DNA of 64,000 bases from Acidobacteriaceae bacterium (GTDB taxonomy: Bacteria; Acidobacteriota; Terriglobia; Terriglobales; Acidobacteriaceae), in contig JAPWKE010000003.1 of NCBI GenBank assembly GCA_028283655.1, positions 2,542,001 through 2,606,000 on the forward strand, read 5' to 3'. A program made the translations under genes and the position numbers. The notes below the pieces were generated by a model, which was not told the DNA's origin, did no database searches, and saw nothing but the letters and a program-made list of their open reading frames with translations. Shown piece after piece: positions 30,713 to 31,723 of this stretch. Positions within the stretch are counted from its first letter, which is position 1. Every line of letters starts with the position of its first letter.

Positions 30713-30788
30713 TGGAGCACCGGGTGGGGATCGAACCCACGAATACTGGTTTTGCAGACCAGCGCGTTAGCCACTTCGCCACCGGTGC
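30713..30788 (-). tRNA. tRNA-Cys (anticodon GCA)
   Basis: A full cloverleaf can be drawn: acceptor GCACCGG/CCGGTGC, anticodon stem CTGGT/ACCAG with loop CTGCAAA (anticodon GCA), T-stem GTGGG/CCCAC with TTCGATC loop, discriminator U and an encoded CCA. It lies 83 nt downstream of the peroxiredoxin gene on the same strand. No intrinsic terminator is visible between them and only a weak promoter candidate (TTGGTC, 17 nt, TACCCT), so it may be processed from the peroxiredoxin transcript. Confidence 0.97.
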
Positions 30789-30871
30789 TCGTTAGGTTCT
30801 AGGGTACAAGGTTTCTGCTCAGCGACCAAGCGGTACCACCTGTGCGAAACCCTGCCCCCGGAACCAAAGCG

Positions 30872-31528
30872 TTACTTAGGCTGCTGCGTCATACGCAGGT
30901 AAGGCTTTACCGTCTTGAAGCCGGGGAAGATCTTGTCGGCTTCTTCGTTGGAGACAGCGCCCGTGATGATGACGTCGTCGCCCTGCTGCCAGTTGGCCGG
31001 GGTGGCAACCTTGTGCTTCGCGGTGAGCTGGATGGAGTCCAGAACGCGGAGGATCTCGGCAAAGTTGCGGCCGGTGGTCATCGGGTAGGTCAGGTTCAGC
31101 TTGATCTTCTTGTCCGGTCCGATGACGAAGACCGTGCGGACGGGAGCGTTGTCAGCCGGGGTGCGTCCTTCGCAGCTATCGCCTTCTTCCGCAGCGAGCA
31201 TGTTGTAGAGCTTCGCTACCTTTAGTTCGGGGTCGCCGATGATCGGGTACTTCACGGCGTGGCCGCTGACTTCCTCGATATCCTTCTCCCACTTGCTGTG
31301 CGACTCGACGGGGTCAACCGAGAGGCCGATGACCTTCGCGCCGCGGGCAGCGAACTGGTCTTCGAGGGCAGCCATCGCGCCAAGTTCCGTGGTGCACACC
31401 GGGGTGAAGTCCTTGGGGTGCGAGAACAGAACAGCCCAGCCGTCGCCAATCCAGTTGTGGAAGTCGATCGGGCCCTGCGTGGTTTCAGCCTGGAAGTTGG
31501 GTGCGATGTCGTTGATGCGAAGTGACAT
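30872..31528 (-). CDS. 1-Cys peroxiredoxin (Prx6 subfamily)
   Basis: 218 residues. The peroxidatic Cys is residue 45 in HPKDFTPVCTTELG; a second Cys is at 119 (EGDSCEG). Length, the extended C-terminal dimer domain (PDKKIKLNLTYPMTTGRNFAEILRVLDSIQLT) and GLSVDPVESH fit the Prx6/1-Cys class, which reduces peroxides with an external thiol donor. AAGGAG lies 7 nt before the ATG. Upstream on the same strand are a Cys-rich mini-ORF and a terminator, so expression is probably controlled by attenuation. tRNA-Cys lies downstream. Confidence 0.95.
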   Translation of the reverse strand: MSLRINDIAPNFQAETTQGPIDFHNWIGDGWAVLFSHPKDFTPVCTTELGAMAALEDQFAARGAKVIGLSVDPVESHSKWEKDIEEVSGHAVKYPIIGDPELKVAKLYNMLAAEEGDSCEGRTPADNAPVRTVFVIGPDKKIKLNLTYPMTTGRNFAEILRVLDSIQLTAKHKVATPANWQQGDDVIITGAVSNEEADKIFPGFKTVKPYLRMTQQPK

Positions 31529-31570
31529 TATCTTTCTCCTTCAAACAGTTCAGTTCGGTCGCACCAAGCA

Positions 31571-31602
31571 GAAAACCCACCCGGCGCTGGCCTTGGGTGG
31601 GT
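31571..31602 (-). terminator. Intrinsic terminator inside the peroxiredoxin leader (attenuator)
   Basis: On the minus strand ACCCACCC (31602-31595) pairs with GGGTGGGT (31582-31575) across a 12-nt loop that itself contains GGCC, followed by TTTTCT. It lies 42 nt before the peroxiredoxin ATG and 49 nt after the stop of the Cys-rich leader ORF. GGGTG at the end of the leader ORF (31659-31655) can pair with CACCC in the first terminator arm, an antiterminator option. Confidence 0.75.
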
Positions 31603-31651
31603 CGTTTCGTTCGCTGATGTACGCTTTACGCGTTCTGCGATTCGCTTCGAC

Positions 31652-31723
31652 TCACACCCGCACGGGGCCGCAGCAACAGCAGCGGCAGCACATGAGGGGC
31701 GAGTTGGTAACGGTCTGCTTCAT
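31652..31723 (-). CDS. Cysteine-rich leader peptide (23 codons), putative attenuator ORF
   Basis: A short minus-strand ORF with ATG start and TGA stop. Codons 12-18 read Cys-Cys-Arg-Cys-Cys-Cys-Cys, six Cys codons in seven, preceded by a Met codon and followed by Gly-Pro-Val-Arg-Val-stop. It is followed by an intrinsic terminator and then the peroxiredoxin gene, the geometry of amino-acid attenuators such as trp and his leaders. No ribosome site is seen; a TCTAAA/TAAATA -10-like box ends only 4-6 nt before the ATG, so the mRNA could be leaderless. Poly-Cys leader ORFs that act as cysteine attenuators are known in mycobacteria. Caveat: TGC repeats could be chance low complexity. Confidence 0.65.
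   Translation of the reverse strand: MKQTVTNSPLMCCRCCCCGPVRV

Follow-up and report, generated by a model that had tools for sequence, protein, structure and literature searches.

A likely cysteine-decoding attenuator upstream of a 1-Cys peroxiredoxin and a second tRNA-Cys in Acidobacteriaceae

Gene order and features of the locus

The window analyzed here is a 64,000-nucleotide stretch of DNA from an Acidobacteriaceae bacterium with a 4.27-Mb genome. On its minus strand, a Cys-rich 23-codon ORF is followed by an intrinsic terminator, a gene for a 1-Cys peroxiredoxin (Prx), and a gene for tRNA-Cys(GCA). The ORF (positions 31723 to 31652; MKQTVTNSPLMCCRCCCCGPVRV and a stop codon) has Cys at six of the seven codons between 31690 and 31670, in the order C C R C C C C, and its coordinates and content, like those of the other features listed, were correct in the initial annotation of this DNA. 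Its start and N terminus are similar to those of leader ORFs in several genus members (MKLTVSNSTLTCC.. and others), and we found no clear Shine-Dalgarno sequence 5' of its start. In the interval before Prx, we observed a hairpin at 31603 to 31574 (-20.5 kcal/mol, z -3.7, with none of 200 shuffles as low) followed by a short T-run (TTTT), in keeping with the claim that an intrinsic terminator separates the ORF from Prx.

Prx (31528 to 30872; 218 amino acids) is preceded by a likely Shine-Dalgarno sequence, AAGGAG, at 31541 to 31536. The protein contains the Pfam domains AhpC-TSA and 1-cysPrx_C and a PVCT active site, and Prx6 and 1-Cys types were among its best PDB sequence matches, confirming its earlier assignment as a 1-Cys peroxiredoxin and placing it in the Prx6 class, with scores under the curated cutoffs of all seven NCBIfam models matched. 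Both ARAGORN and Rfam called the tRNA gene at 30788 to 30713, with the Cys(GCA) identity given by ARAGORN. This tRNA-Cys is of a second type with a GCACCGG acceptor, U73, and an encoded CCA. The hairpin reported 3' of it is present at 30693 to 30664 (-22.4 kcal/mol, z -4.8) and likely marks the end of the unit. A strict terminator scan of 30600 to 32000 listed neither of these minus-strand hairpins, and its two plus-strand terminator-like sites both overlap the leader hairpin.

Conservation of the leader and its alternative pairing

Orthologues of Prx were detected in 19 of 28 genomes of the genus (E ≤ 1e-80); all 19 have tRNA-Cys(GCA) downstream, and 18 have the Cys ORF. Two Prx paralogues in the genus (L022 and L023) have neither. 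Across the family, 110 of 200 genomes contained a Prx match (E ≤ 1e-60), and we examined 86 Prx loci, those of the genus included. An upstream ORF with at least four Cys in eight codons was present at 54 of the 86 loci versus 0.58% of 1,720 dinucleotide shuffles, and a terminator pattern was present at 61, so that both elements are kept in relatives, which was the check that the initial annotation had set. tRNA-Cys lies within 450 nt of Prx at 50 loci, of which 48 have such an ORF, compared to 6 of the 36 loci without tRNA-Cys; 46 of the 50 have the terminator pattern. Nine further Prx loci without tRNA-Cys have a three-Cys ORF and a terminator, and two loci with both Prx and tRNA-Cys (L010 and L066) showed no clear leader.

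The same arrangement occurs in Terriglobus albidus DSM 26559 (L216), whose leader has seven Cys in eight codons, and in a Granulicella (L219), and in Terriglobus roseus DSM 18391 (L229) it occurs with only three Cys in eight codons. In a separate set, the best 80 named Prx loci listed, 13 were titled Acidobacteriota, one was ambiguous, and 66 were others. None of the 67 non-Acidobacteriota or ambiguous loci had an ORF with at least three Cys in eight codons together with a terminator pattern, and none had tRNA-Cys within 500 nt downstream of Prx. Of the 13 Acidobacteriota loci, seven had this kind of leader, five of them together with tRNA-Cys. We also searched 396 genomes of the phylum with a leader model, R1, which was built from 43 Prx leaders and contains the sequence GGGTG; 28 of the 29 genomes matching at E ≤ 1e-6 belong to the family. 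The match outside the family (L381; G621:C27:125653-125788) was rejected as a Cys leader, as it is a Trp/Tyr leader, MTHLYWYYWYWYAQRVGR, with a terminator. This leader of a distant phylum member looks like a classical Trp attenuator, and the gene after it is apparently trpE.

The end of the window ORF contains GCGGGTG (region 2; 31661 to 31655), which can pair with CCCACCC (region 3; 31601 to 31595), the 5' arm of the terminator, as expected of an antiterminator. Across 43 aligned leaders, this pairing held in 81.7% of 300 cells, with a maximum of 53.3% when the alignment was slid; none of 500 shuffles reached 81.7%, and five cells were changed on both sides. The terminator stem likewise contains a compensatory A-U to G-C change among leaders. 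Furthermore, the pairing energy of each leader's own regions 2 and 3 was better than that with re-dealt partners (permutation value of 0.0005, n = 61, which is optimistic because the sequences are related). A compensated pair, GCAGGTG with CACCTGC, was observed in L040, and in some leaders the match between regions 2 and 3 reaches past the terminator stem, as for CTGCGGGTG with CACCCGCAG in L029.

With a modelled ribosome at the first Cys codon, region 3 paired with region 2 in 58 of 59 leaders versus 39% of shuffles when region 2 was taken from the last Cys codon on, and in 51 of 59 leaders when the last Cys codon was left out. With a modelled ribosome at the stop codon, the terminator formed in 58 of 59 leaders. 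In these models, the antiterminator would be mutually exclusive with the terminator and would be freed by a stall at the Cys codons. The enrichment of both the Cys codons and the alternative pairing argues against a constitutive terminator that insulates Prx, with a decorative ORF and unregulated read-through, and we regard such an arrangement as very improbable. The conservation of the Cys ORF and an antiterminator with compensatory changes instead support the initial reading of the leader as an amino acid attenuator, and as judged from sequence comparison the leader is conserved and very probably works as a cysteine attenuator.

Upstream of the ORF, we read by eye a predicted promoter, TTGACA-N17-TAGGGT, at 31826 to 31798; a strict promoter scan of 30600 to 32000 listed no promoter, this one included. 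As a raw count, 56 of 59 leaders contain a match to a loose TTGAC/-10 pattern together with an ATG in frame. The upstream region is in common with that of a divergent plus-strand gene (31764 to 32792), whose product appears from its sequence to be a PhzF-family protein. The ORF of the window begins 74 nt downstream of this promoter's -10 box, and covariation supports a three-way-junction RNA element at 31790 to 31735, beginning at about the predicted +1. This element between promoter and ORF is common to 17 leaders, the window included, in which 95.1% of 306 cells are paired and 28 cells are changed on both sides; none of 500 shuffles was as good in both respects. The loop of its second hairpin is conserved (window; L342 to L361). 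A model built from the 17 sequences, R2, matched the window at 31792 to 31723 (the window being among the training sequences) and found the element in 20 of 250 genomes from three genera, one copy each, many of the 20 being training sequences. In all 20, the element lies 16 to 38 nt upstream of an R1 leader match. We considered and rejected a 5' riboswitch; because the element had no Rfam match and occurs in the 250 genomes solely with the Cys leader, we count it as part of the leader. Our guesses for its role are shielding of the 5' end or bringing the 5' end near the ORF start. In other genera, the ATG of the ORF lies only 0 to 12 nt past a predicted -10 box (24 of 59 leaders), and due to this short distance those leaders may be leaderless.

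Leader targets and the second-type tRNA-Cys

A plain TGY4 pattern was useless alone (100 matches versus 48 in a reversed control). R1 matched 223 of the 250 family genomes at E ≤ 0.01, mostly weakly, and only the stronger matches were used. In relatives, R1 leaders precede cysD (L168, and L170 by resemblance), cysK (L167), YeiH-like genes (L169, and L164 and L171 by resemblance), an SQR-like gene (L154, below the curated cutoff), an ssuA-family gene (L165), and a second Prx (L156, and L152, L153, L157, and L161 by resemblance). Since R1 was made from the Prx leaders and includes GGGTG, the loci that it found are not wholly independent tests. In a set of 27 leaders that were not used for training, of which 12 immediately precede tRNA-Cys, the duplex of regions 2 and 3 had a mean z of -2.0 relative to shuffles; 14 of the 27 had p < 0.05 and 13 did not, including that of cysK (L167) and the direct leaders L386 and L159. 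This wider test was made after a narrower region 2 test of the same 27 leaders, which 15 passed versus 38% of shuffles. The host genome has one strong R1 match, the Prx and tRNA-Cys leader (itself in the R1 training set), and 58 weaker ones, of which the two inspected (L175 and L180) showed no leader. As only the Prx leader scores strongly there, a regulon in the host genome would be hypothetical. In relatives, the predicted targets are linked to cysteine (tRNA-Cys, cysD, cysK, and YeiH-like and ssuA-like genes). The initial proposal of one sensor for Prx and tRNA-Cys is corrected in that, in relatives, similar leaders also precede other sulfur genes.

The diversity of these leaders bears on what is sensed. 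Among 59 leaders, the Cys positions follow 43 distinct patterns of TGC and TGT, and the number of Cys varies; such freedom would be expected from selection on decoding and not on the sequence of the peptide. A nascent poly-Cys peptide could itself be the sensor, with metal binding or oxidation altering translation. Copper-responsive leader peptides have been suggested to act in this way, clusters of Cys are known to bind metals and oxidants, and a thiol peroxidase would be a fitting target. We nonetheless consider a peptide sensor improbable, as the number, spacing, and neighbors of the Cys residues vary widely and similar leaders precede cysteine synthesis genes, sulfate genes, and tRNA-Cys. 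Codon decoding remains our preferred signal.

Searches of the host genome with the Rfam tRNA model and ARAGORN gave 48 tRNA matches, and by anticodon two of these are tRNA-Cys(GCA). The other tRNA-Cys follows a tRNA-Gly at C3:222534 and is 74% identical to that of the window. The proposed tie between the Cys sensor and tRNA-Cys supply must be qualified accordingly, as the window gene is one of two. Among the matches listed for the 250 family genomes, we counted 89 genes for the window type of tRNA-Cys in 86 genomes, requiring near full length and at least 82% identity; G154:C124 (82% over 72 nt) and all matches below it were left out. A leader-model match lies upstream on the same strand for 72 of these 89 listed genes, directly before the tRNA for 11 (19 to 82 nt) and at 722 to 884 nt, which leaves room for one gene, for 61. 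The count of 72 uses R1 matches to E 3.3e-7 and two weaker matches beside the tRNA that were added by hand (G192 and G249), and would otherwise be 70. Six more leaders were added by reading (G058, G121, G202, G124, G257, and G056), that of G124 lying 1,639 nt upstream and beyond our linkage limit of 1,600 nt. In total, 78 of the 89 listed genes lie behind a Cys leader.

For 12 of these 78 genes, the leader directly precedes tRNA-Cys with no protein gene between, in one case at a gap of 19 nt, and all 12 leaders have at least four Cys in eight codons. The tRNA search was independent of R1, and many of the 43 Prx leaders behind R1 come from the same genomes. These 12 loci strengthen the link between the attenuator and tRNA-Cys and uphold that part of the original claim. 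No leader was found for the other 11 of the 89 listed genes. Of these, one follows Prx (G137), and two, both in G212, follow a YeiH-like gene and the gene of a sulfatase maturase; others follow cysG (G053), ssu/tau-like ABC genes (G104), the gene of an Rrf2-family regulator (G046), or a peptide deformylase gene (G232), and L388, L390, L392, and L396 have no clear neighbor gene. G212 has three copies of the second-type tRNA-Cys (L389, L390, and L391), two of them after the YeiH-like gene and the anaerobic sulfatase maturase gene. The second-type tRNA-Cys is found in several gene neighborhoods, many with sulfur genes, and mostly still behind a predicted Cys attenuator. In other genera whose Prx lacks a linked tRNA-Cys, tRNA-Sec occupies the same position after Prx (L058, L071, L074, L078, L079, and L157, all six confirmed by Rfam), and in L077 a tRNA-Sec was seen by eye upstream of Prx.

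The attenuator could be real but regulate Prx only, with tRNA-Cys a chance neighbor that is transcribed separately, from a promoter located in the spacer or within the end of Prx. The spacers are up to 178 nt long, and a terminator-like hairpin is present in 4 of the 50 (versus 0.6% of shuffles), so that the tRNA may be uncoupled at those four loci; the same scan found a hairpin after the tRNA in just 5 of 50 loci and is therefore insensitive. A weak TTGGTC-N17-TACCCT was also seen by eye in the window spacer, and the 11 listed genes with no leader found would fit as well. Against such uncoupling, 24 of the 50 spacers are 50 nt or shorter, the strict scan listed no promoter in the window spacer (although it also missed that of the leader), the tRNA with no leader found recurs several times after sulfur genes, and the 12 direct leaders have no Prx to regulate in between. 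We consider an uncoupled tRNA unlikely and favor one in which both genes are output of the attenuator. The window spacer (30871 to 30789) contains an imperfect inverted repeat resembling by eye the AGGGTTCAGGG/CCCTGAACCCT repeats in L012 and L019. Once the tRNA has been processed, the repeat in the window may leave the Prx mRNA with a protective hairpin at its 3' end.

Proposed mechanism and relation to known attenuators

We consider it likely that the locus encodes a ribosome-mediated transcription attenuator with cysteine decoding as its signal and with Prx and the second tRNA-Cys as its output. RNA polymerase would start near 31791 and copy the Cys ORF after the structured 5' element. When Cys-tRNA is plentiful, a ribosome translating the ORF would continue beyond the Cys codons as far as the stop codon and cover region 2, leaving region 3 to pair with region 4 and transcription to terminate at about 31572. 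When charged tRNA-Cys is scarce, the ribosome would stall in the Cys run, and region 2 would be free to pair with region 3, blocking the terminator and allowing transcription through Prx and into the second-type tRNA-Cys on one transcript. Oxidative loss of cysteine may also be a trigger, which would explain the presence of a peroxiredoxin in the unit. Because the tRNA product would read the sensor codons, a feedback loop on tRNA-Cys supply would be closed.

We lean toward a further interpretation, that of a self-regulating tRNA gene: the second tRNA-Cys would be inducible, with ribosome stalling at the codons it reads governing its transcription. Members of this soil-dwelling family would keep a housekeeping tRNA-Cys, and slow Cys decoding would release a reserve isoacceptor and a thiol peroxidase, to the presumed benefit of the cell. 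The attenuator appears to be an on-switch that is opened when Cys codons are decoded too slowly, and a tRNA gene is seemingly controlled by the codons that it decodes. If the tRNA gene is an output, the cell would measure codon decoding and answer by making the decoder, providing a direct test case for matching tRNA supply to demand.

Biosynthetic operons and tRNA synthetases are known targets of attenuators. Attenuators of the trp and his type use regulatory codons and mutually exclusive antiterminator and terminator hairpins. The proposed attenuator follows the same logic of codons and exclusive hairpins and differs from them in having a tRNA gene among its targets. T-box riboswitches likewise respond to uncharged tRNA but have no leader ORF, unlike the leader described here, for which an Rfam search gave no T-box match.

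In mycobacteria, poly-Cys leaderless short ORFs are cysteine-responsive attenuators of downstream genes (Canestrari et al. 2020, as related in parts of PMC9031893, PMC9094748, and PMC13236596). The leader described here resembles those attenuators in its short ORF with consecutive Cys codons and in the proposed cysteine-responsive attenuation of downstream genes, and leaders of other genera in this family may be leaderless as well. The differences lie in the phylum (Acidobacteriota), in the targets, Prx and tRNA-Cys, and in the 5' three-way junction of the window leader. According to a part of PMC1262725, Cys leaders occur in Actinobacteria and the mycobacterial ones are without a conserved terminator hairpin, in contrast to the intrinsic terminator and conserved antiterminator observed here. 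In Rhodobacterales, the uORFC-8-2 motif before cysS contains a Cys-codon uORF for which attenuation has been proposed (PMC8632094, in part). As that portion describes it, the motif shares with ours a uORF with Cys codons, two stems, an intrinsic terminator, and proposed attenuation. It differs in having two tandem Cys codons, in a target that is cysteinyl-tRNA synthetase rather than a tRNA or Prx, and in its phylum. Among the open-licence papers listed, surveyed by title and the opening of the abstract, we recognized neither a tRNA gene under the control of a leader-peptide attenuator nor a Cys attenuator in Acidobacteriota. Poly-Cys attenuation as such is known, and the unusual part of the system proposed here is its output, a second tRNA-Cys together with a peroxiredoxin.
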